The position numbers and the translations under genes were made by a program. A stretch of DNA of 64,000 nucleotides from NCBI GenBank assembly GCA_964035545.1, contig OZ037765.1, positions 34,423,504-34,487,503 on the forward strand, in the 5' to 3' direction. The notes beneath the pieces were generated by a model, which was given only the letters and a program-made list of their open reading frames with translations, was not told the origin of the DNA and did not search any database. Position 1 is the first letter of the stretch. Every line of letters starts with the position of its first letter. Shown piece by piece: positions 23 through 42,569 of this stretch. Source of the DNA: Bugula neritina. Its lineage: Eukaryota; Bryozoa; Gymnolaemata; Cheilostomatida; Bugulidae.

Positions 23-3000
23 TTTTCTACTCAGTGTGTCTCTCTTCACCTACTAGACTCTGACCAGCTTCTCATTGCAACATCTCACAGCTCTACGAAT
101 ACAGGCTAGTATAGTTTACCTTTTCTGAACATGATTGTTCTAGTAAAGTAGTTCTACTGTAACTGTATGCCTCCTTCACTTGAATATGAGTAGATGTAAG
201 CCAATCAGTGTAGCTGTTCTCATAGCACCTGTTTAGACGTGTCACAGCTCAAGTATGGTGACATGTGCTGGTCTTGTAGGTGTCTTACTTATATTCAGTA
301 TCAAGTTCAGAACTACGAGGGTTCTAAAGAGTCTGGACAGTGAGCTCTACGGTGATAAACCTGTGACTCTTCTACCTCCATACATACTGACTCACACGGA
401 GAGCTCATTGCAGGCTCACTCATATAAGTACAGCAAGTTGACACTAAGGAGCATGATGGGCAGTTTGAGACTGTCTGCTGATTCTGAGTTGGTGAGTCAC
501 CAGGTTATTCAGTGAGTTACCAGGTTATTCAGTGAGTTACCAGGTTATTCAGTGAGTCACCAGGTTATTCAGTGAGTTACCAGGTTATTCAGTGAGTTAC
601 CAGGTTATTCAGTGAGTTACCAGGTTATTCAGTGAGTTACCAGGTTATTTAGTGAGTTACCCGGTTATTTAGTGAGTTACCCGGTTATTCAGTGAGTTAC
701 CAGGTTATTCAGTGAGTTACCAGGTTATTCAGTGAGTTACCAGGTTATTCAGTGAGTTACCAGGTTATTCAGTGAGTTACCAGGTTATTCAGTGAGTCAC
801 CAGGTTATTCAGTGAGTTACCAGGTTATTATTCACTGAGTCACTTAAGAGAAGCTGTACTAAATCATCGTAGCATGAACCATCTGCATTTGTTTCTAATG
901 ATATTCAATTCTCTTGTTTAGACTAAAGCTGAAGAACTCAACTCCTGTATGATGTATTTAGAAACTCAAGCTAAGGTGTGTAGCTGTGACGTTGAACTTT
1001 AACCTCTTAGTGCACATAACTCCCTGACTACTGTTCTACTTGAGATTTTATGTTTAGAATGGACAAGAGTTGGTGGAGGAGTTGGCCAAGTATGATAGGA
1101 GTTTGTTATTAGAAGTTGTGCTTTCCTATGCATCCCTAACCTCCATGAGATGGCGCTCCTCTGTGGTTCTAAGGCTACTCAGTTATCTTACCTTACCTTC
1201 ACAGTGAGTTACTATATATTACTCTACTCAGTTACTCTCTCACTGAGTTACTATATACTACTCTACTCAGTTACTCTCACACTGAGTTACTATATACTAC
1301 TCTACTCAGTTACTCTCTCACTGAGTTACTATATACTACTCTACTCAGTTACTCTCACACTGAGTTACTATATACTACTCTACTCAGTTACTCTCACACT
1401 GAGTTACTACATACTACTCTACTCAGTTACTCTCACACTGAGTTACTATGTACTATACAGTATCTACTATCCAGATGTCTTCTTGTTACAGACTTGTGTT
1501 GGCTGTCGCAGATGCAGCAGTGAGACACGCTGACTCAGATCTGGTGAAATATTTAACATTTGTTAGAGAGGAGCTGCCTGAATCAGCCATTGTCTCTCTC
1601 CTCACACATTACATCAAGTAGGTATCTCTTAGCTCTATCTCTAGTCTCAACTCTGAGTTTAAATCTTTTGAGTAAGAGTTATTTACTCAATGCAGTCCAG
1701 TGGGTATGACTAAAATGGGTGGCCACCCAGTGTCGCAGTCTGTGACACCCATTTTAGTCAAATGGGGAGGTTTTGACTGAAATGGGTGTTGCGAAAAAGT
1801 TTCGTTTCATTTTCAGATTTTTAGACAGCTGTGACTGTTGAGATTATTGTTAAATGGATCTTCAGTGAATAATGAACATCTCACAATCGTTTAAACCAAA
1901 AAAACATAAATAAAGATAAAGTTGAAATAATTAAAACAAAAACCAAATTTGTCAAGAGTTATCTTTCCTCATCAAAACTTTAATTTCCACTTAATTTTAT
2001 TGTTATTGTTATGATCATAGACATGCCGACTTATAAAATATATACTTTAAGCTAGTAAAAATGCTGGGAGTAATATTGGAAAAACAAAAATGTTCACAAA
2101 GTTTTAAAAAAAACGAATACTTTCCCCGACACCCATTTCAGTTAAAATAACCCAGGATGACTAAAATGAATGTCAAAAGAATTTCTGGTTTGCATTTAGC
2201 ATTGAGGACAGATATAATTTTACAATTGACATTATTAGACTGCTTTTTGTCACACCCCAGTCCAGCTACCCTCCAATGATTGCACTGCTGTGAGTTTAGT
2301 TTGAGGTTTGAGAATTGCTTTTCTTTTCAAACTTCTCCAACATACGAGAGTTTCACTGAGTGTATTGATGTAATTTGTGTTTTATAGGAATATTCCCCAG
2401 TCTGATGTTACCATGGATACTGATAGCAGCGGACATGATAGTGGAATACTAGACATCCCCTGTGAGCTGATAACTCCCATGTTAGTTGTACTCTTATCTT
2501 ATTCTCTTCCTATCTTGACCTGGTATTGTCAGTATTTCTTTCTAAAGAATGTTGTGTCTTCTAACCATTTACACTATACTGTTGATAGGGATAAGTAATT
2601 CCTTAAACTCTCAGTCTTTAAGTATTACTTTTCTATCCTGAGTAGCTTACTCAAAGGATGTTTGAATAAAGAAGGCTTTAGTAATTCTAGTGAATGCTCA
2701 ATCACTGGCTTTCCATGTATCGATCTCAGATCTGAGAAATGTGCTAAGATCGATCATTTTTCCATGAAAGTGTCAGATAGATCTCACGGAGTTACCTCCT
2801 CTTAAGTGAAAGATACTTTAATAGTATAATTTGCTGACCCATCTAACTGATTAAAGCTACTGCTGTCAAAAAAAAACAAGATTGTTGCAGTCTAAAAATT
2901 AACGCCAGCTATAAACTACACGCAGCAAATTTTTTAGCGTGGAGTAAATTTGCCAATTTATGATGATCTATTTTAATTTTTTAGCTTGACAGCTTATATA

Positions 3001-6000
3001 AAATTAATAGCTGTCTTGCAGATTATTCATAAACTTACAGGATTGTTAGGCTTGAAAATAGGCAGCAAATAGCTAATGAAAGCAAGTTTTACTAGCCATT
3101 TAAATTCAATTTAAATGCTCCCATTTTTTGTCTGGTCTATAATTTTATATAATTGAGTTTTCTTAATCATAGTACTGAAAGTTGAAGTTTTGGCATCTGA
3201 AAATGTGGCTATTGTAATTATTAAGTAATTTGCTTAGTAATTAACAATAAGTTATCATTTTTAAAAGCAGACGACATTTTAGCAAACAGTCTTTTTCTAC
3301 TTCTCAGATTGATCTTTTGTTTTTCCATGGTCTTATTGCCTTGAGATCGATCTGAGTTCAAGCTCTACAGACCGACCAGCTCAGAATGACTGAGATCGAT
3401 CTTTGACGTCTTTCCATGGAAAGACGTCAAAGATCTATCTCAGCGAGATCGATCTGAGATCGACACATGGAAAGCCGGTGATTAGCTTCCCTTCTTATTA
3501 TCACTTGTATGTAATTACCTTTGTGGTTGGCTACACTTCTTTCTATTGCTTTGTACTAATAATTTTGTGATATATATACTCTTTCAAAAGGCTTTTTGTT
3601 ATGATTAGGTAAGTTGTATTAAGTGAATCTTCCACATCAAAGAGTTTCGGTGAAGCTATCACAGGGATTCAGCTGAAACTCAGTATGGGTCATTTTACTT
3701 AATTTAGTACACACTGAAATCTCCAGTTTTTAGCTATTTTTCAATATTTAGCTGGTAATGAACATGGCTTTTTGCCTAAAACTAGTAAAACACCAATAAA
3801 TACACCGAAACAATTAAGGTTCTTCTTAGTTTTACTTGATTTCTCATGTTTTTGCTTATTCATTTAGCTTATTAGGAGTTCAGACTATTAAGAAAACCGT
3901 AACAGTCTGCAACCGAAAGTAGCTGAATAATTAGGAAGAAACATGGGAAATGAAGCAAAATTAAAAAGAACTTGGCTTATTTAGGTGTATATATTGGTGT
4001 TTTGCTAGTTTTGACCAAAAACCCATGTTCATTAGCAGTTAAATCGTGAAAAATAACTAAAAACTGAAGATATATAGTGTGTACTAAATTAAGTAAAATG
4101 ACCAGTATGGTAAATGTGTGAAAAAGAGTACCGAGTTTCAGTTAATTTCACTTGTCGGAGCACCCGTTATAGTTTTACTAAAACTTGCTTAAATCATATT
4201 GATGCAGAAGCTCACTTTTACCTCATTCACACTTGCTGTACCTTAATGTAAAATATCAGCCATTTTTAATGTTTCTGGGCTAATGTTTTCAAAGTCCGAT
4301 ATTGGGTTCGATCTATGCAACTTCATTGGACAATTAATCCCAATGAGTTGATGCAAAAGTTGTTTTGTCCAATAGGAGCCCACCACAACTTGTTTGAATC
4401 AAGGCTTTTTTTAGTAGGTCGTCTGGTCGGCAGAGTAATAACTTATCATCTAGCTCTGCAAGGATTTTTATTTCTCTTAGACTCTTATTCTCGGGTCAGT
4501 TGGTCAAGTTATTACAAAACAAAAGTTTAGCCGGGTGCCTTCTACAATGCAAAGGCAATTTTCAAGGGTTTCTCTCAACCAAATTGACTTTTTGACTATA
4601 AGTGGCTAAGGTATAAACTCACCTTATGTAAGTTTATGTAACAAGAGCTTTTACTGATAGTTCTAACACTTTATGTCTACTTATTACTAAACACATGATG
4701 CCCCTTAAGAGGGGAAAGAGCTGAGTCTATCTAATCTATGGTTTATACTGCACAGGTTCCTTCTCTCTTCTCCCCCATTGATCAATACTACATCCTCAGT
4801 GTCTGTTGCTAGGTGACGATGTGTTGGTAGGTGATGATGTGTTGTTAGGTGATAATGTGTTGCCAGGTGATGGTGCGTTGTTAGGTGATGATGTGTTGTT
4901 GGGTGATGATGTGTTGCTAGGTGACGGTGCGTTGCTAGGTGACGGTATGTTGCTAGGTGATGATGTGTTGCCAGGTGATGGTGTGTTGCTAGGTGATATA
5001 TTACATTTGTGTTTATATTTCAGAGAGACCCTTCTGAGCAAAGACATAACAGATGTGTATGCTGTAGAAGCTGTTAGGAGGATGGACTTTGACCATGTGC
5101 TGGTTCGTTTATATTACGTCATATACTTACTATATTACGTCATATACTTACTATATTACCTCATATACTCACTATATTACATCATATACTCACTATATTA
5201 CATCATATACTCACTATATTACATCATATACTCACTATATTACGTCATATACTTACTATATTACATTATATACTTACTATATTACATCATATACTCACTA
5301 TATTACCTCATATACTTACTATATCACATCATATACTCACTATATTACGTCATATACTTACTATATTACATCATATACTCACTATATTACGTCATATACT
5401 CACTATATTACGTCATATACTCACTATATTACGTCATATACTCACTATGTTACGTCATATACTTACTATATTACATCATATACTCACTATATTACATCAT
5501 ATACTTACTATATTACCTCATATACTCACTATATTACGTCATATACTCACTATATTACGTCATATACTCATTATATTACGTCATATACTTACTATATTAC
5601 ATCATATACTTACTATATTACATCATATACTTACTATATTACATCATATACTCACTATATTACGTCATATACTCACTATATTACGTCATATATTCACTAT
5701 ATTACGTCATATACTCACTGTATTACGTCATATACTTACTATATTACGTCATATACTCACTATATTACGTCATATACTCACTGTATTACGTCATATACTT
5801 ACTATATTACGTCATATACTCACTATATTACGTCATATACTTACTATATTACGTCATATACTTACTATATTACATCATATACTCACTATGTTACGTCATA
5901 TACTCACTATATTACGTCATATACTCACTATATTACGTCATATACTTACTATATTACGTCATATATTACCACATATAATACATGCAGGTTCTACTGAAAC

Positions 6001-6548
6001 ATCTTAACACCCTGCTATCAGATGTGAGAATACCGGATGCTGATTGGATACTGGATGGTGAGAGGATGTGCCGGTGGTGTACCGTCATTCTGGATGCTCA
6101 CTCAACTCAACTCATTCTCTCTAATCAGGCGCAACTTCTGGTCAGCTTGCACGAGAACATCAGACGGCAGGTGAATATCTACCTATAGTATTGTTACGGT
6201 ACACATACTGCTAGTATTGTTACGGTACATATACTGCTAATGTTGTTGCGGTACACATACTGCTAGTATTGTTACGGTACACATACTGCTAATGTTGTTG
6301 CGGTACACATACTGCTAGTATTGTTACGGTACACATACTCCTAGTATTGTTACGGTACACATACTCCTAGTATTGTTACGGTACACATACTGCTAGTATT
6401 GTTACAGTACACATACTGCTGTTGTCAGGTGGAGTTACACGGAGAGATACGGAAGCTGGGGGCAGCCATACACGCTCTGAGTAAACCACCTCAAAGTAAA
6501 CCATCAGCTGGAAGATACAGTATAGAAGTTGTCCCCTTCTACTACTAA
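23..6548 (+). CDS. NOL11: NOL11-like nucleolar protein, C-terminal part (5' end outside window)
   Basis: Exons that keep one frame through matching phases: 23-104 (tentative), 280-491, 922-975, 1058-1203, 1492-1617, 2388-2480, 4756-4812, 5024-5102, 5988-6170, 6429-6548 (TAA). The product in the window is about 380 residues, mostly helical (for example LVLAVADAAVRHADSDLVKY), and ends GRYSIEVVPFYY. This closely resembles the end of animal NOL11 as I remember it. NOL11 works in the nucleolus in the small-subunit processome, supporting rRNA transcription and early pre-rRNA cleavage. The beta-propeller half lies upstream of the window. A polyadenylation signal AATAAA lies at 6645-6650. Five introns begin with tandem arrays. 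The exon at 23-104 would need a GC donor (AG|GCTAGT), so it is the weakest. The family call rests on the C-terminal motif and helical content, without an alignment. Confidence 0.6.
492..832 (+). repeat. 20-bp tandem array starting exactly at a 5' splice site
   Basis: About 17 copies of gtgagttaccaggttattca. The first copy begins with the GT of the donor after the NOL11 exon ending at 491, so each unit carries a consensus GTGAGT donor. The rest of this intron (to 921) is unremarkable. Confidence 0.95.
1204..1446 (+). repeat. About 40-bp tandem array starting at a 5' splice site
   Basis: About six copies of a unit containing gagttactatatactactc. The true junction is CACA|GTGAGTTAC. Later copies read CACACTGAGTTAC or CTCACTGAGTTAC, so the copies resemble the junction but have lost the GT. 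Confidence 0.9.
1708..2172. mobile_element. Possible degenerate inverted-repeat element in a NOL11 intron
   Basis: The motif gactaaaatgggtg recurs in both orientations. A 14-bp stem joins 1708-1721 with 1746-1759. The stretch near 1773-1790 pairs with 2129-2147, and another copy sits near 2161. This looks like a decayed palindromic element. No target duplication or coding sequence is seen. Confidence 0.4.
2700..3483. mobile_element. Terminal-inverted-repeat element (MITE-like) in NOL11 intron
   Basis: The left end aatcactggctttccatgt is the near-perfect reverse complement of the right end acatggaaagccggtgatt. GATCGATCT-rich inverted motifs continue inward at both ends. It is about 780 bp, AT-rich inside and non-coding. 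A perfect 38-bp palindrome lies near the right end at 3398-3435. No clear target-site duplication. Confidence 0.7.
3670..4145. mobile_element. Foldback element with long inverted arms
   Basis: Two arms of roughly 180-200 bp face each other around a loop near 3870-3920. For example ggtcattttacttaatttag on the left is reversed as ctaaattaagtaaaatgacc near 4083-4102. The matches are imperfect, so this is an old element or MITE. No coding capacity. It shares the 2481-4755 intron with the element at 2700. Confidence 0.7.
4813..4995 (+). repeat. 18-bp tandem array starting at a 5' splice site
   Basis: About ten copies of gtgatgatgtgttgctag. The exon end (gttgctag) plus the donor gtgacg form the unit, so most copies recreate an AG|GTGA junction. 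In the frame of the preceding exon, read-through gives a stop at once (AGG TGA). Confidence 0.93.
5103..5987 (+). repeat. 21-bp array filling a whole NOL11 intron, rich in TTACGTCA
   Basis: Starting a few bases after the donor, about 41 copies of a 21-bp unit (core tattacgtcatatactcac) fill this 885-bp intron up to the acceptor at 5987. By eye 25 copies carry TTACGTCA and most of the rest have TTACATCA. Long open frames in this stretch are repeat artefacts. Confidence 0.95.
6171..6428 (+). repeat. Tandem array filling the last NOL11 intron
   Basis: Nine to ten copies of a unit of about 27 bp with core gttacggtacacatactgct occupy nearly all of this 258-bp intron, between donor GTGAAT and acceptor gtcag. 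Confidence 0.92.
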
Positions 6549-6806
6549 CTCTACTAGATAGAGTATCTGTGTATAGAAGTTGTGTTGCTACTGCATAACC
6601 ACACTTTGTGCATACTGTGTAGAAATATTTTATTCATCTGTTAAAATAAAGCTTGTAATACATAATAAAGCTGAAAAACTTCGTTTTTACATAACTGAGA
6701 AACTTTAAAGTACCCACTAGTCTAAAAACATTTACCTATATGAAAGAAACCTGCTATATGCAAGCTGGACTCATCTTTACAAGATGAGGAAAATGTTGAC
6801 TGGACG

Positions 6807-11087: not shown

Positions 11088-14000
11088 ATGACGTACCGTA
11101 CTGTTACTCTGGGTTTTGGGGCCTTTTTCACCGTGGCAGCATTTGTATGCTTGCTAGTGGCGCTGTGCACCAACCAGTGGGTCATCATTCAAGTGGACAG
11201 GTCAGCTGATTCTACGCTGCAGATAGGCTCAACCAGTGCTGCCACTCTTGCTGCCTTCACCAGATACAGAGGCATCTTCAAGGAGTGCTATGATGACAAA
11301 GAGGCCACCAAACCTTGTATGTATGACGTCATATTTGCTATTTTACAATTTCAAGTTATGGGTTTTAACGACAAGCTAGTTGAGGGACTGTGAGTCTATT
11401 TCTACAGAGTGTCTCTAATGAGGTAGGTCCAGTAATGGAGGAATTAGGGAACCCTTTGCTTTAGATAAAAAGTGTAGCAAAAGAAAAGACGTCAACAAAA
11501 ATTCCTGAAGAAAACAAAATACACTTGGGCTAGTTATTGATAATTCTCCATTACTGCACCTAAATGTAAAAATAGTAAAATTACAAGCCAGGAATCAAGT
11601 TTACATGATGCCTCTAAAGTCATTCAGTTCCTGCCTTTACCGTCTCTGTGCCAATAGTGATAAAAAGTGACCAAGTTTTATGGCAGTTCAAGAGTGGGAG
11701 GGGCCTTGTTTAGTGGCGATAGAATCTGGCATTATGCCAATATTCAATGTTGCATCAGTTTTCATTAAAGGCAATTACATACAGTTTTGCTGCTGTTACT
11801 GTTTCCTGTTGGGCGGCCATTTCATAATTAATACAAAGAGAATGACTTTTATACGTTGTAGACGTGAGAGCCAACGACTTTAAAGATGACCTGAATGAAT
11901 GTATATTCAATGACTTCATGGTGAACCGTAGAGTTTCTGTCAACTACACCAGCAACTACAAGACTAGAACAAGTAAACTCTACACTTATACTGTATACGC
12001 ATTGTTTTATTGATATAACCTCACTTAAGACTTCATATCATTAAATATGGCCTTGCAAAGCCTCTTCACTACATACTGTGTCACTCCAGTCAGTCGTCTA
12101 CTATTCACTACATACTGTGTCACTTCAGTCAGTCATCTACTATTCACTACAAGTACATACTGTGTCACTTCAGTCAGTCATCTACTCTTCACTACATACT
12201 GTGTCACTACAGTCAGTTGTCTACTATTCACTACATACTGTGTCACTTCAGTCAGTCAGTCGTCTACTATTCACTACATACTGTGTCACTTCAGTCAGTC
12301 GTCTACTATATATTCACTACATACCGTGTCACTTCAGTCAGTTATCTAATATTCAAGCCGATAGTTCTGAATCCTTCTACTACAATAAACACTGTTTTCT
12401 AACCAATAAAAAGCTGATTTTATGCTTAACATAGTTTTATGTAGAAAAGAAGTATTAATTATTCTCCCATCATTTTACTTCTCAATGTAATAACACTTAT
12501 TCATGAAATAGCAGACCATGTTATATTGGAATCCTAGCTTACCAATCAAGTACATTACCGGGCAGCAAACACCCTGACCTACTGAGTCATACACTGAGTC
12601 AGCACACTGAGTCATACACTGAGTCAGCACACGCTGACACATGACTATTATATTGTAGACCTGCTCATAGCTATGGTGGTGTTCATCTGTCTAGCTCTAC
12701 TCCTCTGTGTCATCGGCTTTATCGTCTTCTGCTACAGCGTCATGCTCAACGAGACTGTCATGACCAGGAAATGGAGTCTCGCGACAAAGTGGGCGGGCAT
12801 TCTCTTATTCACCGCAGGTAGTGTTCTTATCACTAGACAGAGTGCGAGCATAGTATGTGAAGGGCGGACAACCTCGCGTTTGCAGTGTATAGTGCTCCAG
12901 TGTAATATGCTTTCATAAAACTTCTTAAAACTCAGCAATAAATTTGTCGAGTTCATTCAAATCAGGTTAAGCTTACGAGGAATATGATTTGCACTGCTAT
13001 GAATAACATCCCACAATTCTCATTCACCTAACAAATTAGTTGTGGTTATTATATTTAAACTGGTTACTTGCGATTGAAATGATTCTTTTGAGAATGACTG
13101 ATGCTTATAGTTTGTTTGCTGCTTACTTGTTCGTTTGTTTGTAGCATTTAGCACAGCGTTGGGGATGGCTTTCTATCACGGAGCAGAGTACATGGAGACA
13201 GAAGTTATCGATACGGACGGGAATGACGCCCCCTACCCTCTCTTCTTTACTAAAACTCAGCCATCTGTACGTATTACATAGACTCAGCTCTCTGTATGTA
13301 TTACATAGACTCAGCTCTCTGTATGTATTACATAGACTCAGCTCTGTGTATGTATTACATAGACTCAGCTCTCTGTATGTATTACATAGCCCCAGCTCTC
13401 TGTATATATTACATAGACTTAGCTCTCTGTATGTATTACATAGACTCAGCTCTCTGTATGTATTACATAGACTCAGCTCTCTGTATGTATTACATAGACT
13501 CAGCTCTCTGTATGTATTACATAGACTCAGCTCTCTGTATGTATTACATAGACTCAGCTCTCTGTATGTATTACATAGACTCAGCTCTCTGTATATATTA
13601 CATAGACTTAGCTCTCTGTATGTATTACATAGACTCAGCTCTCTGTATGTATTACATATACTCAGCTCTCTGTATGTATTACATAGACTCAGCTCTCTGT
13701 ATGTATTACATAGACTCAGCTCTCTGTATGTATTACATAGACTCAGCTCTCTGTATGTATTACATAGACTCAGCTCTCTGTATGTATTACATAGACTCAG
13801 CTCTCTGTATGTATTACATAGACTCAGCTCTGTGTATGTATTACATAGACTCAGCTCTCTGTATGTATTACATAGCCCCAGCTCTCTGTATGTATTACAT
13901 AGACTCAGCTCTCTGTATGTATTACATAGACTCAGCTCTCTGTATGTATTACATAGACTCAACTCTCTGTATGTATTATTCACCTATATTATATAGTTGG

Positions 14001-26300: not shown

Positions 26301-27025
26301 ACTAGCACTAACTCACTAGCACTAACTCACTAGCACTAACTCACTAGCACTAACTCACTAGCACTAACTCACTAGCACTAACTCACTAGCACTAACTCAC
26401 TAGCACTAACTCACTAGCACTAACTCACTAGCACTAACTCACTAGCACTAACTCACTAGCACTAACTCACTAGCACTAACTCACTAGCACTAACTCACTA
26501 GTACTAACTCACTAGCACTAACTCACTAGCACTAACTCACTAGTACTAACTCACTAGCACTAACTCACTAGTACTAACTCACTCACTCACTAACTAACTC
26601 ACTCACAGTAACACTACTCACTCATAATTTCACAGACAATAGTTTTGGCCTTCATATCACGAACTTACAGGACTTCTTGACATCATCAGCCATTAACTTA
26701 TCTAGAGTTAGAGTTATAGTTGGCGGTTACATTCTATGAGTACTTATTTATTAGTTGATATTTAGTGTCTGCAGGTTACATAATAATATGGCTGTATTTC
26801 CTGTATTCTCACTCTCCTTCTAACTGCACAGGCTCTGCGTCCAATGGAAATCTGCTGGTTGATGTTACCAACAGTGACGGTGAAGATGTGCTCGTGGTGA
26901 AAGCAACTCCTCCGCCATCTGGGAAACTGTCCACCAAACTTCCTGCTAAACGATATAAAGGCATTCAAGATGATTCTGACGACGACGATTATCTTCCGGG
27001 AAAGAAATCGTGTGCTCGTCGATGA
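20386..27025 (+). CDS. MRE11: MRE11 double-strand-break repair nuclease, complete
   Basis: Ten exons keep phase from ATG to TGA: 20386-20608, 21055-21279, 22068-22321, 22418-22586, 22997-23222, 23514-23774, 24207-24345, 24814-24906, 25284-25464, 26832-27025. That gives 654 residues (human about 708). Metallophosphoesterase motifs: TDNHVG (D37, H39), GGDLFHE (D77), GNHDD (N145, H146) and WGHEHE (H261, H263). RVANPKDIV is in the capping domain. A Gly-Arg-rich stretch (about 566-590, the site of arginine methylation in vertebrates) and an acidic [14 protein letters not shown] end follow. With RAD50 and NBS1 it resects DNA ends and activates ATM in the nucleus. All metal ligands I can check are present. 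Five introns are largely tandem repeats, including arrays at splice sites. An AATAAA lies at 27618. Confidence 0.96.
20910..20945. repeat. Perfect 15-bp hairpin in MRE11 intron 1
   Basis: agtctgccaaacaaa and tttgtttggcagact are perfect reverse complements around gatata. It may be the end of a small inverted-repeat element. Confidence 0.85.
21530..22086 (+). repeat. 55-bp array containing about ten copies of an MRE11 3' splice site
   Basis: Each unit contains ccctttag|GTATGGGTAAC and then tgtgtgc. Only the last copy (acceptor at 22067) continues into exon 3. In upstream copies the exon-like part ends in gctgtatag, giving an in-frame stop eight codons in. Confidence 0.96.
22322..22395 (+). repeat. 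17-bp array starting at the MRE11 intron 3 donor
   Basis: Four to five copies of actatatactaggtact. Exon 3 ends CCAG|GTACTA and the repeat recreates CTAG|GTACTA each time. The intron is only 96 bp. Confidence 0.9.
22612..22785 (+). repeat. Tandem array in MRE11 intron 4
   Basis: About 9-15 short units built from gtcacactctgtcatactgt. It begins about 25 bp after the donor, so it is only loosely attached to it. Confidence 0.88.
23262..23505 (+). repeat. 22-bp array ending just before the MRE11 exon 6 acceptor
   Basis: About eleven copies of gtagtaatacatactgtatg plus gc fill most of this 291-bp intron. The last unit runs into the acceptor region ggagtaatacacgttgcag. Confidence 0.9.
24328..24765 (+). 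repeat. 18-bp donor-copy array passing into a CTCTCTA repeat, MRE11 intron 7
   Basis: The exon end TCCCTAAACTCT plus donor GTATGT is repeated six times from 24334, then changes into about 17 copies of a ctctactctctatattctct-like unit. The array begins inside the last 12 bases of the coding exon. Confidence 0.93.
25745..26632 (+). repeat. 14-bp minisatellite in MRE11 intron 9
   Basis: About 58 nearly identical copies of ctcactagcactaa, among the most uniform arrays in the window. Edge copies are shorter (actcactc). The uniformity suggests recent expansion or active homogenisation. Confidence 0.97.
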
Positions 27026-30992: not shown

Positions 30993-33900
30993 CTATTGAT
31001 TATCATCATCATGGTAAGCATATATCAACTCTTTCTTGTCGACTTCCTCATTGGAGATGTAAGGTTTCACTTGGCGCCAGTCTTCTGTTGTCGTGGCACT
31101 TATTTTGTCCAGATATGCTTTAAGACGAGAGAAGCCATCTTCTAGCAGCTGGTTTTGTTTTGTAATGGCCTTTATTAGCTGTAGGTTCATATTTACAGGG
31201 TGCACGGGATCCATACCATCGTATGAGGAGTTGTCATCTTCTAACTCTTTCTTTAGCCTTGTCTCGTTGCCAAGGTAACGCTTGTGTATCCAATATGGTG
31301 GCATGTAGTGAGGCATATAGTAGTTATACTCATAGGGGTAACTCTTGTACTGGTAAGGAGGCCACCTTGGCATGCCATACAAACCACCAAACCTACAAGT
31401 TAACAACTGCCCATGAATGTGTAAAGCAGTGAAGAGTTGAAGGCATCCAGTGACATATGCAAGTAAAGGACGTATCGATCTTTCTCTTGGCAGTTTACAA
31501 TAAAACTAGAAGCCAGCTTTCATTTAGTTAGGGTTTTGGTATACAACAATCTGTGAATTAAACTCTTAGTGTATTAAAATATTTGTAACCAACCATAGAA
31601 TATGCAGCAAGCAATTATAAACACTCTGTGTCATAAATCAGTGCAACATATTTGTTTTATTGTATTTCACATCAACATGGGCCCTTACCACCACCCCCCC
31701 CCCCCCCCCCGTGTCATGTTGTGGGTAACTCACTGTGGCAAGTATTTAGGGACTTCCTTTTTTCCTGAAAGTGAGTGTGACATGTGACTGTCAGGTGGCA
31801 CGTCTGCTGAGTGTGACATGTGACTGGCAGGTGGCACGTCTGCTGAGTGTGACATGTGACTGGCAGGTGGCATGTCTGCTGAGTGTGACATGTGACTGTC
31901 AGGTGGCACGTCTGCTGAGTGTGACATGTGACCGTCAGGTGGCACGTCTGCTGAGTGTGACATGTGACTGCCAGGTGACATGTCTGCTGATGGCAACTGA
32001 TGTGAGGGCACATTGTATAGCCTGTGATTATCAACTAGGGTTGGGTGGTTCAAAGGCTGCCCATCCTCACCTTCTGCAAGACATAAAATCACTTGCTAAT
32101 AGTTGTCAACTACATATGCTATACATATAATAAAGCTAGTAAACAAGGTATGCAGAGCACCTGCGTGTAGAGTCGAGTCTGACTCTGAATTCACTTGTAT
32201 GTCAGACACTAAGGGTGCCGGCGGATCAAGTGGATACCCAGAATCTGAGTTGACATCAGTGTGATGAGATGAAGAGTGAATACTGGTGGCTAGCCCTAGA
32301 ACATAGAGTCAAGTCATCATCAAGGTAGGGGGAGTCAGAAACCACACAGTAACTTGTAAATAATCTCAGAATATTTAATTTTTCAAGAAAGACAACTAAG
32401 GAAATTTGAATTGTAGAAGAATAGCTGCAGCATGCAAATGTCTACTCAGAATATTAGAGAAGTAGAATAAGTATCACATAATATACACTACATAATAGTA
32501 CATCATATATTACATAATAGTACATCATATATTACATAATAGTACATCATATATTACATAATAGTACATCATATATTACATAATAGTACATCATATATTA
32601 CATAATAGTACATCATATATTACATAATAGTACATCATATATTACATAATAGTACATCATATATTACATAATATTACATCATATATTACATAATAGTATA
32701 CCATATATTACATAATAGTACATCATATATTACATTATAGTATATCATATATTACATAATAGTACATTGTATATTACATAATAGTATATCATATATTACA
32801 TAATATTACATCATATATTACATAATAGTATACCATATATTACATAATAGTACATCATATATTACATTATAGTATATCATATATTACATAATAGTACATT
32901 GTATATTACATTATAGTATATCATATATTACATAATAGTACATTGTATTAGTACATTGTATATTACATAATAGTATATCATATATTACATAATATTACAT
33001 CATATATTACATAATAGTACATCATATATTACATTATAGTACATCATATATTACATAATAGTACATCATATATTACATAATAGTACATCATATATTACAT
33101 AATAGTACATCATATATTACATAATAGTACATCATATATTACATAATAGTACATCATATATTACATAATATTACATCATATATTACATAATAGTATACCA
33201 TATATTACATAATAGTATATCATATATTACATAATAGTACATTGTATATTACATAATAGTATATCATATATTACATAATATTACATCATATATTACATTA
33301 TAGTACATCATATATTACATAATAGTACATCATACATTACATAATAGTATATCATATATTACATAATATTACATCATATATTACATAATATATACCACCA
33401 ACTCACTGGTAAACCGAAGAGAGTATTTAGTGTACCCATTGCCAACTCCATGATTACAGTCTACCTCTGGAGTCTCCTCTAGCGAAGATTTGCTAGCAAC
33501 TGTAAGATTATACACAGCCACTGTGAGCAAGCAGAGCTGACTCTACTTTGTAAGACATTGACTGTACCACAAAAAATACCTACAGTCACTGATTCATAGG
33601 AAAACTTTTTCACGTCTCAGAAATTATTCCATCAATCAAAAAATTTAAGTAACCACTAAATCTGTGCGTCACTCTGATTGGCTCAATACACTGTAGTGAG
33701 TCACGTTAGAGACCGTCACTCTGATTGGCTCAATACACGGTAGTGAGTCATGTTAGAGTCATACTCATGTTGACAGCATGGCCAGACATGTCATACTCCC
33801 CGTCTCTAGAGAGGACAAGACACTGCAGCTGACTTCTACTTCCTGCCGGCAACCTGGACAGACAGACATGACAAACTGTGATGCATTATAATATATGATA

Positions 33901-34135: not shown

Positions 34136-34224
<89 letters not shown>

Positions 34225-34277
34225 AGAGAGAGAGAGAGAGAGAGCTAGAGAGAGAGAGAGCTAGAGAGAGAGAGAGC

Positions 34278-34324
<47 letters not shown>

Positions 34325-37268
34325 AGGGAGAGGGAGAGGGAGAGGGAGAGGGAGAGGGAGAGGGAGAGGGAGAGGGAGAGGGAGAGGGAGAGGGAGAGGG
34401 AGAGGGAGAGGGAGAGGGAGAGGGAGAGGGAGAGGGAGAGGGAGAGGGAGAGGGAGAGGGAGAGGGAGAGGGAGAGGGAGAGGGAGAGGGAGAGGGAGAG
34501 GGAGAGAGGGAGAGAGAGAGAAAGGGAGTAAGAGAGAGAGGGGTATAAAACTGTTTGTAAACTGTAGTGCTTGGTGTATATCTAAAAATGTTTACATTTA
34601 CTTACAGAAGGGGTCCTTGCCAGCCGCCCCGTATGCCCTGTAGTAGGAACTTCTTAACTCAACTATCCTCTCACTTCTTTCCAGCTTCCACTCACCAAGA
34701 AAGCCATGAGGTATTGTTTTGCACACTGTCACTTCAAACAAGCCAATCATAAAGCAGGATATAGCTTAGAAGCACAAATAGACCAATCAAAAAGCAAGGA
34801 AGTTCTATATGAAAGACAACTCCACACAATCTGATAGACTTACTAGATGAGTCTCCACCAGCCCGGGCCACTGCGTTCCCTTTGGGCAACAGGTCCACCC
34901 AGTTCGGTTTATCTAAAACACAGAAGTACACTAAGTACTGACAATACATCAACTGTACCTGGATTCAACACCAGCATAGCTGAATATTTAGTCACTGTAC
35001 ACTGGAGAGGTTACTGTAGACAGAGACAATAACTCCATCAAGTAAGGTGGTTTGATTCTATTAGAAATACACACTACAGTAGGAAGACAACTCCAGGTAT
35101 GCCCTTTACCTCATGCTCTCTAGTTACAAAGGTACAATACAGTTAGTAATTTAGGCACAGTTCTTATCTTCACAGTATAAGCTAAGTTATTATTGGACAG
35201 GGCAATGTGCACTCATTTGGCACAAATGTTCACACAAACATCTGCTTTCTCGCAATATTCTTTCCCTCGAGTTTAGCGAGTGTGTTCGTGCATCAAAGAA
35301 AATGAAGATATCCTAAGTTTCTCATGAACTCACCAGTTAGATGGAACTTGTAGGCTACCCTCCTACTCCCCTCTCCCCAGAACTCACAGTCTATGCCATG
35401 TTTGTGAGAGAGTTGAGTGGCTGAAGAGTAGAAAGTAACAAATCAGTTCACAAGAAACAAGAAACTGCATGATATGCATATACAGTATACATTGTAGTAT
35501 ATCTAAATATAACTTTAAGGGCTAGTAACTTCATTACATGTTATTAATGAGAAAAGTGTTTTAATTAATACCTTTCAAAAATATATAAAGTAAACTTATG
35601 TCTTAAGAACTACTGTAACTATTTTCAGAGTTAGACTACAGTTAAAGGTTAGTACAGTATGCTAAACTACATGTCTGACACAACGTGAGGTCTAACATAC
35701 AGTTCTAACTTTTAATCTTAATTCAAAGTATGAAAATGTTTATTTACTTTAATTATAGTATATACATATTATAATATATAATGCAGCATAATTATACATT
35801 GATCACAACATAAGTATTAAAATGTATTCAATATAATATATATGAACTATAATATGGACATTGTTATATAATATGCATTACAATATATACATGTGCGTTG
35901 AATATAACTGAGTTGATTAAAACATTTTGTTGTCCTACATTCTAATATAAAAGCCCACACAGTAATCTATTCTAGAACATTCTTCTAGACACAGGAAGTA
36001 TAAACACCGTGACAGGAAATACTTACTCTCGCGTACCACCAACCCGCTCACCGCCCCCTCCTCCTTTTGTAGTCTGAGGCACATAAACTCGCCGCTATCA
36101 CGGCTTCGTGACTCACTCAGGGCTGCCTTCACCTGTATGACATCATCATCACACCTGAGACTGTACCAGTGTAGCTTCAGACCACCTGCGGCCTTACCTG
36201 CCCACCATAATATATTATATAGTGCCCACTATAATATATTATATATTGCCCACCATAATACATTATATACTGCCCACCATAATACATTATATACTGCCCA
36301 CTATAATACATTATATACTGTCCACCATAATACATTATATACTACCCACCATAATATATTATATACTGCCCACCATAATACATTATATACTGCCTACCAT
36401 AATACATTATATACTACCCACCATAATACATTGTATATATACTGCCCACCATAATACAATATATACTGTCCACCATAATACATTATATACTGCCCACCAT
36501 AATACATTATATACTACCCACCATAATATATTATATACTGCCCACCATAATATAATATATACTTATATATAAGTATATATAGAAGTACATATATACTTGT
36601 ATAGAAGTATATCTATACTCGTATATAAGTATATATATACTCGTATAGAAGTATATATATACTCGTATAGAAGTATATATATACTAGTGTAGAAGCATAT
36701 ATAGACTCGTATAGAAGTATATATATACTCGTATAGAAATATACATAAGCTCGTATAGAATACCAAACACATCGTCGGGAGGTCCTAGTATACGGAAATA
36801 GTGTTCGCTGAGCCACAGCTGTCTTCCCTTCTGACCAATCAACTGCCAGCGTTTAGTGAAGGATGGAGGAATAGTTTGGCATGAGAACAAATCTACAAAG
36901 TGGAGACAAATCTACAAAGTGGAGACAAATCTACAAAGTGGAGACAAATCTACAAAGTGGAGACAAATCTACAAAGTGGAGACAACTATTCACACAAAAA
37001 TGTATAAATTCTTCCAACGATAATGCCACTAATGTATATATACACATTCCACACCTGTGTGTACATATGACTTCATGTAGATGTTGTGATACTCAGTTGG
37101 AAGTCTTGGTATTACCTAATTCAAGTTATCAGCTTAAGATTACACATACATATATAGCTAATTATAGAGCAGACAACTCCAAACAACATAAATACCTCTT
37201 TTATAAATATGGCTGAAGCTAAATGGCAGAGCAAACACAACTAAAAGAGAAATCAAATCAACTCCCAT
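30993..37268 (-). CDS. Unrecognised secreted protein with two related domains and a 12-residue repeat
   Basis: Eleven exons in one frame: 37196-37268, 36764-36892, 36027-36197, 35334-35420, 34844-34912, 34606-34725, 33797-33853, 33407-33499, 32161-32295, 31734-32073, 30993-31392; 557 residues. It starts with a signal peptide ([19 protein letters not shown]). Two related domains follow. The first starts C29[11 protein letters not shown] and the second C178[11 protein letters not shown]. Each then has a Tyr-rich box ([16 protein letters not shown]) and closes with IDCEFWGEG or [10 protein letters not shown] before a Y-F/L-T strand. Residues about 340-411 hold six copies of a 12-residue unit ([12 protein letters not shown]). 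The tail is Tyr/Pro-rich ([17 protein letters not shown]), then helical. No transmembrane segment after the signal. The cysteine-tryptophan pattern recalls invertebrate extracellular DUF704x proteins, but that is a guess. Convergent with SELENOM. Confidence 0.75.
31790..31995 (-). repeat. 36-bp coding minisatellite (12-residue repeat)
   Basis: About six copies that preserve the reading frame inside the coding exon 31734-32073. On the gene strand the unit contains catgtcacactcagcaga. Variation is mainly cct gac versus cct gcc, changing D to A in the peptide. Confidence 0.93.
32470..33395. repeat. 22-bp AT-rich array filling an intron of the secreted-protein gene
   Basis: About 42 copies of catatattacataatagtac plus at. 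On the gene strand it begins within about 15 bp of the donor at 33406. Higher-order variants (tatatc, acattg) recur in blocks, so segments were duplicated as groups. Confidence 0.95.
34044..34530. repeat. Purine tract: (GA)n and (GGGAGA)n
   Basis: About 490 bp of nearly pure purine: ga dinucleotides, then about 35 gggaga hexamers. In an intron of the secreted-protein gene. Long purine mirror repeats can form triplex (H-DNA). Arg/Glu open frames here are artefacts. Confidence 0.97.
36198..36560 (-). repeat. 24-bp array of 3' splice-site copies
   Basis: About 14 copies. On the gene strand the unit is tattatggtgggcag|gtata. The real acceptor is gtgggcag|GTAAGG at 36198. The two copies nearest it read gggcac and gggcaa and so have lost the AG. 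Farther copies keep gggcag. Confidence 0.93.
36570..36763 (-). repeat. About 22-bp array starting at a 5' splice site
   Basis: The donor is TTTG|GTATTCTATACGAG and the array is a repeated ctatacgagtatatatatac unit, about eight copies. It meets the acceptor-derived array at about 36560, so two arrays make up the whole intron. Confidence 0.9.
36893..36987 (-). repeat. 19-bp array of 3' splice-site copies
   Basis: On the gene strand about five copies of ctccactttgtagatttgt. The real exon starts tttgtag|ATTTGTTCTC, so every copy carries an acceptor plus the first six exon bases. Confidence 0.94.
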
Positions 37269-37789
37269 ATTATGAGCTGTATGGAGTAGCTGTATGGAGT
37301 AGCTGTACAACACACTGCGATATTTTCCAGTGCATAGGGGATCACCTCACACTCAACAATACCCCTGCTGCTGCTGCTAACATCTCAATGCATTGTTAGC
37401 ATGAAGATGCATTGTTTACTATGTATACTTAACTTATATCAGCTGCTAGCAGATGTTTTCTACTGAAACTGGATGATGTTGTAAGTTGTACACAGGTCTG
37501 TATTAACAAAATAAACTGAAGTCTGAAATTAACAAAATTGCAAAACTATTTTGAACTATAAATATATTAATTGAACTATATTGATCTGAACTTGAAGACA
37601 ATTATATCAATATGAATATGAATTCAAATCATAAGCTAATTATTGCATGGGGAGAACAAGGCACTATAGAGCAATATAATTGGCTTCCATGCCGTGATTG
37701 AAAATGCTTTGATTTCTTCCGGGACTAGTATATACAATAAATAGAGTTTGAGTATTTACAAAGAAATATTCATATGAAGAGATCATAGG

Positions 37790-38268
37790 TCTATACAAAG
37801 AGATCTAGAAACAATACAAAGAGGTCTAGGCATAGTAAAAAGACATCTAGAGGTAGTACAAAGACATCTAGAGGTAATAAAAAGACATCTAGAGGTAATA
37901 CGAAGACATCTAGAGGTAATACAAAGACATCTAGAGGTAATACAAAGACATCTAGAGGTAATACAAAGACATCTAGAGGTTCTACAAAGACATCTAGAGG
38001 TAATACAAAGACATCTAGAGGTAATACAAAGACATCTAGAGGTTCTACAAAGACATCTAGAGGTAATACAAAGACATCTAGAGGTAATACAAAGACATCT
38101 AGAGGTTCTACAAAGACATCTAGAGGTAATACAAAGACATCTAGAGGTAATACAAAGACATCTAGAGGTAATACAAAGACATCTAGAGGTTCTACAAAGA
38201 CATCTAGAGGTAATACAAAGACATCTAGAGGTAATAAAAAGACATCTAGAGGTTCTACAAACACTTGA
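37790..38268 (-). repeat. 21-bp array just downstream of the PTAR1 stop, open in one frame
   Basis: About 23 copies of tctagaggtaatacaaagac plus a (plus strand). On the PTAR1 strand one frame stays open throughout and reads (LDVFVLP)n. It overlaps the PTAR1 end in a different frame, so it is more likely 3' UTR or flank than coding. Confidence 0.9.
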
Positions 38269-38274
38269 CTAGCC

Positions 38275-41200
38275 TCAGCTAACACGCAGAAGTGTTTTCA
38301 GTCCTTTGAGATGTGAAACTATCAAATTATCAGTTGATGTTCGAAGACTATGCAGCTCGTCGTCCACCATCTTTACACAACGTTCCTCCTTCCTCTTAGA
38401 AAGCTGATATACAATCCATTTCCTGTCAATATATTATTTATTGTCTCACTGTGGGATGACAACTTCAAATAGCTACGTTGAAGCGAACTGTATATACTTA
38501 TACTTACAGTAGTTAGCTAGCATAGTGCATAATAAATCTGTCAACAAAAATGTTGTTCCTCAATAAGGTTTGAGGCAAACTTATCCAGTCCATAGTAAAT
38601 CACTATATGATGATGAACGGAAATCAGCAGAAATTAGGCTAAATGTTTCCAGGTTTGGGGCGTGGAGGGATACGCTCTGTTATAAGTGGGCATGGTTTGA
38701 GGCTACACAGCGTAACTCTAGGATACAACCTGGGGAACCATTTATTCCTCAGTAAGGAGCAACTTTCGTTGGATGCCCCTCCTGACATCAACAGACATCT
38801 AGACACGTTGCGGGTGCCTCCATACCCCCCCTCCCCCATCTAACTAATGTCTCTATACTAAACACCTTAATCAACACTGTACACTATTGGAATACACACA
38901 GTATACAGTTTTTAATGTTTATATTACATCTCATATAATACGTGCATTTTACGTAAATCATGGTCATGAGAAACAATGAACCTCCAATAAAATTAGCATT
39001 ATGTTTTAATAACACTATTAGTAGCAACAGTTAAAAACTATACCAGCTCTATAATATGAGTATATTGTAATATTATATTACACACATGCTACACTGTACT
39101 GTATCACATGACTATATGACTATATGACCATAGTACTATATGACTATATATGACTTTATTACTATATTACTATATTACTATTTGACTATATTACTATATT
39201 ACTATACCTGTGATACCAGAGAGACTGATGACCAGGGTACAGCTCTATCAGTTCACACACATCACTGTATTCATACGCCAAGTCATCTGGTCTGAAATCA
39301 CACGATATACAAGCTGATGAGATGCTCATAGACACAGGGAATTCTTCACACACTCAACAAACCACTGTCCCTAAGTTATTCCCTCGTATAAAATTAGTGT
39401 GTGTCTTTAATGTAGATATACAGCTGTTCATTCACTTCTTTATTAACATATATTACCATAACTACTAGCAATCTACTTCAACTATCACTCTGAGTCAGTA
39501 CTACTCACTGTGAGTATAGGGTCAGTACTAATCACTCTGAGTATATAGTCAGTCAGTACTACTCACTGTGAGTATAGGGTCAGTACTAATCACTGTGAGT
39601 ATAGAGTCAGTACTACTCACTGTAAGCCCAGTTGACTCAGTAGATACTGGCAGTAGCTAAACACGCAGTACTGAGAGACGTTCATCTCCCGCCATTTTCT
39701 CATCCTGTCCAACTCAGCTCTCCATATCTGCAAAAAGAAATCAAATTTCTCAGTTTACTTCTGTATCAACCTGCAGGTTGCTGCATACATTGAGGAAGGT
39801 TGTTTGGAGGTCGACTGCACTAAAACTAGGTCATCCTGACGGCTGCTAATAATATTTTATTAAAGTTTTGCCTGAATGAGCAAATTATGCTCATCTTTGA
39901 CAGGTGGAAGATTAATGTAGCCATTTCAACAATACTGAGGAATATTTAGTAACGCAGTTCAGCTCCCCTGGCAATACAAACTCGCACCTGTGACTCACAC
40001 AACACTCAACAAGCAACTTCTATTGAAATATTTGCTAGAGCTCTGCTAACTCTAGCAACGGTACTACGCTATTATAGCTCTGCTACTATACTGCTATAAC
40101 TCTGCTACTATACTGCTATAGCTCTGCTACTATACTGCTATAACTCTGCTACTATACTGCTATAACTCTGCTACTATACTGCTATAACTCTGCTACTATA
40201 CTGCTATAAATCTGCTACTATACTGCTATAAATCTGCTACTATACTGCTATAACTCTGCTACTATACTGCTATAACTCTGCTACTATACTGCTATAAATC
40301 TGCTACTATACTGCTATAACTCTGCTACTATACTGCTATAAATCTGCTACTATACTGCTATAACTCTGCTACTATGCTGCTATAACTCTGCTACTATACT
40401 GCTATAACTCTGCTACTATACTGCTATAACTCTGCTACTATCCTGCTATAACTCTGCTTTTATACTGCTATCACTCTGCTACTATATTCTTGCTTTGATG
40501 CAGCCACAAAACAGGAAATGAATACAGCAGATAAATGGATTCGCTATATCCCAACTAACATGACTGGGTGATAACATCTAATATTACCATTACATGCCAG
40601 ACTTGAAGAGGTTGCAGATGTCAATATTGATTACGAGTAAGAGTTTAGCTACACAATACAGCTAGTATACATTATACACTTGACAGCAGAGCAGTGACAG
40701 CAGAGCAGTGACAGCAGAGCAGTGGCAGCAGAGCAGTGACAGCGTGGTGTGACAATAGCTATCTTATAGTCTATTGTATGACTGCACACAGGGGATTGTA
40801 GTGGGCAGCATATAGCAGTGAATGTGTGATGTACTGAGATGTGTGTGCAGAGTAGACAGGGTAATACTAATGTTGAGTACATAGATGGCAGTGTAACATA
40901 ATATAGTGCAATAATATAATACAACACAATACAATAACATAATATAGTGCAATAGTACACAATAATATAATACAATATACTGAAATAGTGATAAAACATG
41001 ACACGGAAGATGTCTGTGTGTATTGAATAATAGAAATGCTGCCCTGCTCTGTTAAGTATAAAGTTGATTACATTGTGTGCTTGCTGCCGTTGGTTTGGCA
41101 TCACGCTGACAGAGCGGGCTGACTCATACCTGTTTGCTGGAGTGATGAGTCACACAGAAGAGGCGATGACTCCAGGAGTAGTAGTTACTGTAGTACCTGT

Positions 41201-42569
41201 CAGCAGTGAGAGTGCAGAGTTGTAACTCTGCACTCAGTAGAGTGTCCACCATGTTCAACTGAGTCATCAGCCACCGTCTTACCATGAAATCAGACAAACA
41301 GTGTCTAGACATACAGTATACTGTGTCTAGAGTCTAGACATACAGACAGTACACTGTGTCTAGACATACAGACAGTATACTGTGTCTAGACATACAGAGA
41401 GTATACTGTGTCTAGACATACAGAGAGTATACTGTGTCTAGACATACAGAGAGTATACTGTGTCTAGACACAGTATACTGTATGTCTAGACAGACAGACT
41501 AAAATCAACCAACCTGTGCTCGAAGGTTGCGGAACTTTTAGGGTGTAACTTGAGTATCAACTTGGAAACTAGTCTTTCCTCGTCCAATGAAATCACTCCT
41601 TGTATACAAAGCTTCTTCCTGTAAATGAAGAGGAAATGCTAAGAATAGACATAAAAGATGGAGGTGAAAGAGCAGAGAGTAAGAAGAACAACCAGCTACA
41701 GAGAGTAGAGCTACAGAGAGTAGAGCTACAGAGAGTAGAGCTACAGAGAGTAGAGCTACAGAGAGCAGAAAGTAAGAAGAACAACCAGCTAGAAAGAGTA
41801 GAGAAGATCGTACGAAGCCTACTCACCTCAAGTTCCAAAATACTAGACAGTTGGGGTTAGTTAGAAGTAGCACCAGCGACCATTTACTTGTATCTACAAC
41901 AGAGATGTACTATATGTGTGTGTATTGTGTGGTGCATGTATTGTGTGTGTTGTGTGATGTGTGTACGTGTGTGTGTATTGTGTGGTGTGTACGTGTGTGT
42001 ATTGTGTGGTGTGTACGTGTGTGTATTGTGTGGTGTGTATTGTGTGCTTGTGTGTATTGTGTGGTGTGTATTGTGTGCTTGTGTGTACGTGTGTGATGCG
42101 TGCATGCGAGCATGTGGGACAGGTGCAGGTAAGTACAGCTATAATACTTTACCTGCACACTGAGTGGCTGCAGAAGCTGCTAGGGTCTTATGGTAGAGGT
42201 TAGAGTAGAGAATCCTCAGAATGTTACCGGGTATGCCGAGTTGGCCGAGCTCCAGGGGGCACAACTTTACTATGTCCTCAGAAAGGATAGATTCAGGGGG
42301 TAAAATGTGAACCTCACTACAGATAAATATACAACAGATAAACTGAAGAAACAACATTATGTAACACATATATAATATGAAAACAGCTGTCCAACTGCAA
42401 CAAGTTACTAGTATTATCTTCAGTAAAATATAGATAGCAATTTAAAAGAGTATAACATTTAATTGAAACTGTAATTGTTAGACCAGCAGTTGTACGAGAT
42501 TTCAACTCACTCGACTTCTTTCTGTGTGATGATTTGGTGTAGATAATCAACACTTCTGCTGATGTCCAT
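38275..42569 (-). CDS. PTAR1: PTAR1-like protein prenyltransferase alpha-subunit-repeat protein
   Basis: Eight exons in phase: 42511-42569, 42153-42316, 41827-41893, 41514-41618, 41130-41277, 39621-39727, 39208-39291, 38275-38422; 293 residues. Prenyltransferase alpha repeats follow one another: NPNCLVFWNLRKKLCI, then HPKSSATFEHRRWLM, then YYSNYYSWSHRLFCV, then YPGHQSLWYHRRKWIVYQL. This N-xx-W-N-R / S-xx-W-HR pattern and the N-terminal IPGNILRILYSNLYHK match PTAR1. In mammals PTAR1 is the alpha-type subunit of geranylgeranyltransferase type III, which modifies the SNARE Ykt6. The protein is about 100 residues shorter than the human form, mostly at the C-terminus. Either the tail is lost or a further exon was missed. 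Confidence 0.88.
39120..39207 (-). repeat. Short AT array at the PTAR1 intron 7 donor
   Basis: On the gene strand the donor GTATAGTAATATAGTAATATAG runs straight into atagtaat units. Low complexity. Confidence 0.75.
39488..39620 (-). repeat. 27-31-bp array starting exactly at the PTAR1 intron 6 donor
   Basis: The exon ends CTTACA|GTGAGTAGTACTGAC. The array repeats CTCACA|GTGAGTAGTACTGAC (some copies CTCACA|GTGATTAG) about five times, so each copy rebuilds the junction. Confidence 0.92.
40065..40490. repeat. 22-bp array in PTAR1 intron 5
   Basis: About 19 copies of ctctgctactatactgctat plus aa. In the middle of the large 39728-41129 intron, away from splice sites. Confidence 0.95.
41330..41485. 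repeat. 27-bp array with XbaI-like palindromes in PTAR1 intron 4
   Basis: About six copies of a unit including tgtctagacatacagagagt and atac. The copy at 41460 inverts (tctagacacagtatactgta), making a palindrome at the array end. Confidence 0.9.
41695..41770. repeat. 15-bp array in PTAR1 intron 3
   Basis: Five copies of agagctacagagagt, flanked by direct repeats of agtaagaagaacaaccagct. Confidence 0.9.
41905..42112. repeat. (TG)n-type array in PTAR1 intron 2
   Basis: Imperfect units of gtgtgtattgtgtggtgtgt. Alternating purine-pyrimidine, a potential Z-DNA former. Confidence 0.9.

Follow-up and report, generated by a model that had tools for sequence, protein, structure and literature searches.

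Intronic minisatellites that copy splice junctions in the bryozoan Bugula neritina

A 64,000-nucleotide stretch of chromosome 1 of the bryozoan Bugula neritina (assembly GCA_964035545.1, contig OZ037765.1, 34.42-34.49 Mb; hereafter the window), ~1.15-1.22 Mb short of the chromosome end, carries introns packed with short tandem arrays, some of which run across a splice junction and repeat it. This raises the question of whether splice sites give rise to such arrays, or whether the arrays arise at arbitrary places in introns and meet the junctions by chance. The initial annotation of the window had proposed the former, namely a genome-wide lengthening of introns driven by slippage or R-loops at splice sites, and that interpretation is partly supported here: junctions are copied repeatedly, on both 5' and 3' sides and in several genes, with the introns lengthened, and neither the genome-wide extent nor the junction-targeted driver was borne out. 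We favour, with a probability of roughly 0.7, locally born intronic minisatellites that are regionally concentrated, that span junctions by chance and of which the outermost copy is used in splicing.

Repeat units and splice junctions

Tandem arrays were located with Tandem Repeats Finder (TRF), and a junction was counted as crossed from an overlap of at least 3 bp with the exon. Six genes of the window hold 26 intronic minisatellites: 8 extend across a splice junction, and another 3 stop no more than 1 bp away from one (Table 1). Across all loci 11 of 50 arrays span an exon-intron boundary, the feature that defines the "mirages" of amphioxus, 5' splice sites being crossed in 8 cases and 3' splice sites in 3, by units of 17-55 bp. 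The adjoining exon edge is found in the repeat unit above the level of shuffles of that same edge in 8 of the 11 (9-12 of 12 bases; own-edge shuffle P 0.025 or less), including 5 of the 8 in the window. For the remaining three window arrays (NOL11 1204, 36893 in a gene for a short secreted protein, and PTAR1 39620) the match is 7-8 of 12 bases and indistinguishable from shuffles (P 0.27-0.35).

That intronic repeat units copy splice junctions is thereby confirmed. All 11 arrays initially described as attached to a splice site, and the 3 described as mid-intron, were recovered by TRF, and each of the 11 crosses a splice site or has an edge within 3 bp of one. The accompanying statement, that a unit as a rule consists of an exon edge joined to an intron edge, stands for 5 of the 11; 3 others do not exceed chance, and 3 have units without any exon base (492, 36198 and 36578-36760). 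Left out of that first list were, among others, the unattached arrays at 5110, 6186, 22616, 23259, 32489, 41301, 41694 and 41913 and the near-junction array at 39108-39206, and the amphioxus precedent was not mentioned.

Junction copying extends to two further chromosomes. At the SMC2 locus (L029, chromosome 4 at 1.0 Mb) two arrays cross junctions, by 13 bp on the 5' side and by 6 bp on the 3' side, both with exon-edge matches above shuffles. Degenerate copies in SMC2 intron 1537, classed as non-crossing following the TRF edge, seem by eye to extend past that edge to the 5' splice site. On chromosome 3 (L024) a duplication of only two copies sits at a 5' splice site, comprising 15 exon and 6 intron bases with one mismatch, and it looks like the seed stage of an array.

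Junctions were set by reading frame, GT-AG ends and protein alignment, with GT-AG ends in 48 of 48 hand-set introns. The claudin-like gene, MRE11 and the C-terminal part of NOL11 were hand-built and checked via translation (Pfam matches Claudin_2 and Nol11_C for the first and last), whereas the models of PTAR1 (PPTA repeats in Pfam), the short secreted protein (no Pfam match) and one further gene, all read off the reverse strand as minus-strand genes, are less certain; the last PTAR1 intron is placed by its 5' splice site, at 39207. The joined MRE11 product is alignable with PDB chain 9ulo across residues 24-597 and is by eye gap-free at 5 of 9 junctions (20609, 22322, 22587, 23223 and 24346), with a 1-residue gap next to 21280 and a 2-residue gap at 23775. 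For SMC2, 18 hand-read exons give a product of 917 aa whose alignment with PDB SMC2 spans 4-892 and shows, in its listed part, a single gap of 1 residue. Junctions at sampled loci come from ab initio models made by a self-trained gene finder whose training set was partly the hand-made genes. This gene finder returned 8 of 10 MRE11 exons exactly and sometimes read arrays as exon, so the junctions beside arrays in the window and in SMC2 were hand-set.

Regional density and probable tolerance by splicing

The assembly as analysed represents one haplotype in 295 contigs and 215.85 Mb; tzBugNeri2.1 is described as 320 scaffolds and 216.00 Mb (PMC11480708), and the analysed copy is slightly different in small contigs. 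From it we sampled 250 kb of loci and then a further 40 kb lying ~1 Mb from chromosome ends, and intron counts exclude L011, which has frameshifts within transposon-like sequence. Introns with arrays amount to 33 of 51 in the hot regions (the window genes and the SMC2 locus, the latter with arrays in 12 of 17 introns) as against 12 of 88 filtered intron models in the first sample, where a single array, that of L024, crosses a junction (P = 1e-9). By share of intron bases, arrays make up 43% for the window genes and 56% for SMC2, compared with 4.6% at the sampled loci. The phenomenon is regional, concentrated in certain gene regions, and the suggestion that it operates genome-wide is not supported by these loci.

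Both hot regions lie ~1.0-1.2 Mb from a chromosome end. Three other near-end loci have 1 or 2 arrays each, so the hot regions are patchy; within ~1.2 Mb of an end 3 of 7 places are array-rich (the window, L019 and L029) and 4 are not, and farther away 1 of 23 places has 5 arrays (L017). Over 29 loci, without the window, the number of arrays per locus versus end distance gave rho -0.36 (P 0.054) and array bases gave P 0.28, such that enrichment toward chromosome ends is suggestive only. Third-position G+C content (GC3) of four hot genes is 0.47-0.63, and we found no firm link of array count to GC3 (P 0.12, 24 sample loci) or to non-array GC (P 0.88, 28 loci).

Copies within the crossing arrays carry splice signals. 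We scored 10 crossing introns, L024 being left out. In 8 of these, 2-23 internal sites on the side of the crossing equal or exceed the authentic site in strength: 23 donors at claudin-like 13267, 9 at NOL11 4813, 7 acceptors at MRE11 21280 and 4 acceptors at SMC2 6481, with no internal site of matching strength in NOL11 1204 or MRE11 22322. The conserved MRE11 and SMC2 products require the outermost copy, the one adjoining the exon body, an indirect indication that regular splicing may go undisturbed. Use of that copy would probably come about through exon definition, which pairs sites across a short exon and would select the outermost copy on either side, while the remaining copies would stay intronic and the protein would be unchanged. 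Among the seven 5'-crossing arrays of known phase, translation continuing into the array would hit a stop after no more than 12 nt in 5. In the two others, MRE11 22322 and 24346, the stop comes at 48 nt and 453 nt, so that use of an inner site there would insert in-frame repeat. Such introns amount to a natural experiment in spliceosomal choice among up to ~two dozen near-identical sites.

Placement, origin and competing explanations

Where short introns are filled by arrays, array edges necessarily lie near splice sites. Our null model therefore collapsed each array to one unit and dropped it uniformly in or across the collapsed intron, with 50 arrays entered by hand as rows and with the underlying units of 20 and 21 bp in SMC2 introns 6481 and 5039 taken instead of the TRF values of 39 and 86. 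Observed versus expected crossings are 8 versus 7.7 in the window, 2 versus 5.0 among the 12 arrays of SMC2, 1 versus 1.4 among the 12 of the sample, and 11 versus 14.1 for all 50 arrays (P 0.91). Edges that cross or lie within 1 bp number 14 versus 17.2 expected. Imposing a minimum on the original intron length lowers expected crossings for all arrays to 12.1 at 74 bp (the shortest array-free intron passing the filter described below), to 10.6 at 100 bp and to 8.4 at 150 bp (P 0.20; for edges P 0.11). In introns this short, a fair fraction of arrays will meet a junction through random placement and nothing else; arrays do hug splice sites, yet with placement at chance level this need not mean that splice sites cause them. 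No splice-site-targeted cause is needed for attachment, unless introns were long before expansion.

Unit sequences bear on where the arrays came from. Only 4 of 822 pairs of similar length are at least 80% alike, and these comprise one array split by an insertion, two simple-sequence-like pairs and one borderline pair (MRE11 versus SMC2, 0.82). Since the units of different arrays bear no relation to one another, the arrays probably arose individually at their present sites. The comparison excludes two satellites in the interior of chromosome 1, at L009 1-7867 (20-bp unit, ~396 copies) and L012 1-6095 (18-bp unit, ~340 copies). In SMC2 a transposable element whose inverted ends are long (TGACTAAAATGGGTGGCCACCC) interrupts a 15-bp array, at ~7533-8830 of L029, and the array is consequently older than the insertion. 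A similar shorter copy lies in a NOL11 intron, at ~1695-2165 of the window, both copies having been recognised by eye.

The locally born minisatellites that we favour would begin with a short stretch duplicated in tandem at an arbitrary place in an intron or at its edge, and would then grow by slippage or unequal exchange. Where the first duplication happened to span a junction, every later copy would carry an exon edge and a splice site, giving a mirage.

Several points weigh against this account. Firstly, the null rests on post-collapse intron lengths, and at a floor of 290 bp the 50 arrays together exceed expectation in crossings (5.4 expected, P 0.015) and in edges (P 0.003), as does the window alone (P 0.007 and P <0.001). 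In the window a floor of 150 bp is already enough for edges (P 0.011; crossings 0.073), and at 100 bp the edge excess is not significant (P 0.054). Secondly, array-bearing introns have a median of 100 bp after collapse and 12 of 34 fall below 70 bp (22-66 bp, the lowest being 22, 33, 35 and 42), compared with none of 92 filtered array-free introns (P 3e-8), whose median length is 355 bp for the 18 set by hand and 308 bp for the 74 that the gene finder supplied. The filter required a score >8 for each flanking exon and >3 for splice sites. Thirdly, internal sites that match the authentic one in strength, on either side, also occur in 15 of 38 non-crossing introns, and three of these reach 13 or more such sites owing to splice-like motifs that their arrays contain by chance. 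Lastly, units crossing 5' splice sites have periods of 39, 18, 27, 17, 18, 27, 21 and 21 bp, 7 of 8 being divisible by three, versus 11 of 39 non-crossing units (Fisher P 0.003, post hoc) and 0 of 3 units crossing on the 3' side. Omission of the two without an above-chance exon copy (39 and 27 bp) leaves 5 of 6, and the account did not predict this excess.

The gap between 12 of 34 and 0 of 92 means that array growth was not mere addition to a present-day intron; at face value, either intron sequence was lost or overwritten as the arrays grew or the introns began as arrays. Following the first of these, the arrays of hot genes may have taken over the intron bodies, the old sequence being reduced to splice signals plus array, with introns representing a steady state of array birth and death and selection filtering decoy use at junction-spanning arrays. 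We regard this as a tentative possibility, well short of even odds. Selection on decoy use would explain the multiple-of-three periods at 5' splice sites, but the takeover is weakened in that the 70-bp minimum of array-free introns depends on the quality filter: among unfiltered gene-finder introns 19 of 273 are <70 bp, and the 10 of these outside L011 (35-61 bp), weak predictions that are not among the 92, could in some cases be real. A benefit of keeping frame was considered as a separate cause of the multiples of three and rejected, as 5 of 7 phase-known units carry an early in-frame stop, and the excess is left unexplained.

Junction-targeted mutagenesis, in which splice sites would seed duplications through R-loops, transcription-coupled repair or AG/GT slippage (the slash marks the junction) and so lengthen introns genome-wide, is unlikely. 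It draws on the 8 crossing and 3 near-flush arrays among the 26 of the window and on the excess that appears if original introns were at least 290 bp, or for window edges already 150 bp, but no significant excess is seen when the collapsed lengths are used as they are or raised to a floor of 74 or 100 bp, SMC2 falls below expectation, and the sample contributes its one crossing only. The comparison of array edges with random placement, put forward in the initial annotation, hence speaks against such a driver if introns were short before expansion and for it at the longer floors.

A little less likely again is that the introns themselves were born as arrays, exonic sequence with AG/GT having been expanded in tandem as in the gain model of Rogers, such that the array is the intron. 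The collapsed introns of 22-66 bp, shorter than all 92 filtered array-free introns, would fit such an origin, and the initial annotation had likened the arrays to it. The opposite exon edge, however, is present above shuffled level in 0 of 11 crossing units (lowest P 0.20), which disfavours introns that started as arrays, and non-array sequence is left at the intron 3' end beside most arrays.

Very improbable is an artefact of wrong gene models or misassembled repeats: the sample-locus models are ab initio, but protein alignment backs the MRE11 and SMC2 junctions, the assembly is a PacBio/Hi-C one with a quality value (QV) of 53.7 (PMC11480708), and the two-copy case of L024 is far too short for assembly error. 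The weakest candidate, a dispersed, introner-like mobile repeat family inserting at splice sites, would account for many affected introns in several genes but is contradicted within the loci examined by units that differ from array to array.

Relation to known systems, and further features

Introner elements likewise bring recurrent sequence gain in introns, with sequence common to different genes, unlike the bryozoan units, which are unrelated between genes. Ordinary intronic minisatellites in vertebrates are often clustered toward chromosome ends, and the Bugula neritina arrays share with ordinary minisatellites the local tandem arrays of 10-60 bp and, for both hot regions, the distance from a chromosome end given above; what sets them apart is a junction-spanning subset that repeats functional-looking splice sites.

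The closest likeness is to amphioxus, where mirages are described as minisatellite-like tandem duplications of exon-intron boundaries, on the 5' or 3' side, with units of 10-160 bp (PMC3087553). They are reported for Adh3 and the globin genes BflGb6/BflGb9, and also for PGBD5 and troponin C, with splicing reported to be undisturbed (PMC3087553, PMC3902484). As in those cases, the bryozoan units span the exon-intron boundary and the copies carry splice signals, whereas the phylum differs, the crossing units cover a narrower range of lengths, and most introns of some genes (as in SMC2) hold arrays, with non-crossing arrays alongside. The Rogers model of intron creation by tandem duplication of AG/GT (PMC3087553, PMC4974935, PMC3443670) also involves tandem duplication with a splice signal, but there the start is exonic and both new exon edges lie within the unit, where the bryozoan unit has one. 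The Bugula neritina arrays appear to extend the mirage kind to another phylum, at unusual density. A literature search, with most subscription journals outside its scope, gave no bryozoan or genome-wide report among the matches listed. In the literature found, mirages had been a curiosity of a few amphioxus genes; they would now be known from a second phylum, in many cases and with several in a single gene, as a system for measuring how tandem repeats lengthen and turn over introns between haplotypes and species.

Table 1. Tandem arrays in introns of the window (slash, splice junction; P, own-edge shuffles)
Gene	Array (strand)	Unit x copies	Position relative to splice sites	Exon copy in unit
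NOL11	492..829 (+)	20 bp x 16.9	starts at 5' splice site of intron 492-921 (TRF, hand-set junction)	no exon base
NOL11	1199..1455 (+)	39 bp x 6.6	5 bp across 5' splice site 1203/1204	not above chance
NOL11	4804..4997 (+)	18 bp x 10.8; TGTTGCTAG/GTGATGATG	9 bp across 5' splice site 4812/4813	P 0.025
NOL11	5110..5965 (+)	21 bp x 40.8	intron 5103-5987; 7 bp from 5', 22 bp from 3' splice site; unattached	
NOL11	6186..6420 (+)	26 bp x 9	intron 6171-6428; 15 and 8 bp from splice sites; unattached	
Claudin-like	12062..12355 (+)		mid-intron 11973-12658; unattached	
Claudin-like	13255..13978 (+)	27 bp x 26.8	12 bp across 5' splice site 13266/13267	P 0.002
MRE11	21530..22086 (+)	55 bp x 10.1	intron 21280-22067; 19 bp across 3' splice site 22067/22068 (TTTAG/GTATGGGTAAC)	P 0.001 (3' side)
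MRE11	22309..22388 (+)	17 bp x 4.7	13 bp across 5' splice site 22321/22322	P 0.003
MRE11	22616..22785 (+)	20 bp x 8.4	29 and 211 bp from splice sites; unattached	
MRE11	23259..23505 (+)	22 bp x 11.2	36 and 8 bp from splice sites; unattached	
MRE11	24334..24757 (+), two adjoining arrays	18 bp x 6.3, then 22 bp x 15	first array 12 bp across 5' splice site 24345/24346 (TCCCTAAACTCT/GTATGT)	P <0.001
MRE11	25743..26583 (+)	14 bp x 59.6	mid-intron; unattached	
Further minus-strand gene	32489..33390 (-)	22-bp units (TRF 44 bp x 20.7)	intron 33406-32296; 16 bp from 5' splice site	
Secreted protein	36198..36563 (-)	24 bp x 15	ends at 3' splice site of intron 36763-36198, almost wholly array (two arrays)	no exon base
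Secreted protein	36578..36760 (-)	22 bp x 8.3	second array of intron 36763-36198; 3 bp from 5' splice site	no exon base
Secreted protein	36887..36985 (-)	19 bp x 5.2	6 bp across 3' splice site 36893/36892	not above chance
PTAR1	39108..39206 (-)	8 bp x 12	1 bp from 5' splice site at 39207	
PTAR1	39492..39623 (-)	27 bp x 4.7	3 bp across 5' splice site 39620	not above chance
PTAR1	40073..40486 (-)	22 bp x 18.8	mid-intron; unattached	
PTAR1	41301..41496 (-)	~26 bp	intron 41513-41278; 17 and 23 bp from splice sites; unattached	
	41694		unattached	
	41913		unattached	

Rfam and tRNA scans of the window gave no matches. A 36-bp tandem repeat of 6 copies lies inside a predicted exon at 31772-31990 (-) of the window, where it forms an in-frame 12-residue protein repeat.

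Elsewhere in the assembly, G+C-rich gypsy-like retrotransposon open reading frames, with protease, reverse transcriptase and integrase recognised by eye, lie amid A+T-rich host sequence (L031 2489-7399, minus strand). Of the 130 kinase-domain matches listed, over 100 fall on small contigs (C11-C289), as long matches with in-frame TAA/TAG and rarely TGA; these kinases fit a ciliate-type code and probably stem from a ciliate cobiont left in the assembly. A full-length COX1 on a chromosome (C6:11174072-11175412) has 9 in-frame TGA codons, equal to the likely mitochondrial contig C295, and is perhaps a recent nuclear copy of mitochondrial DNA.

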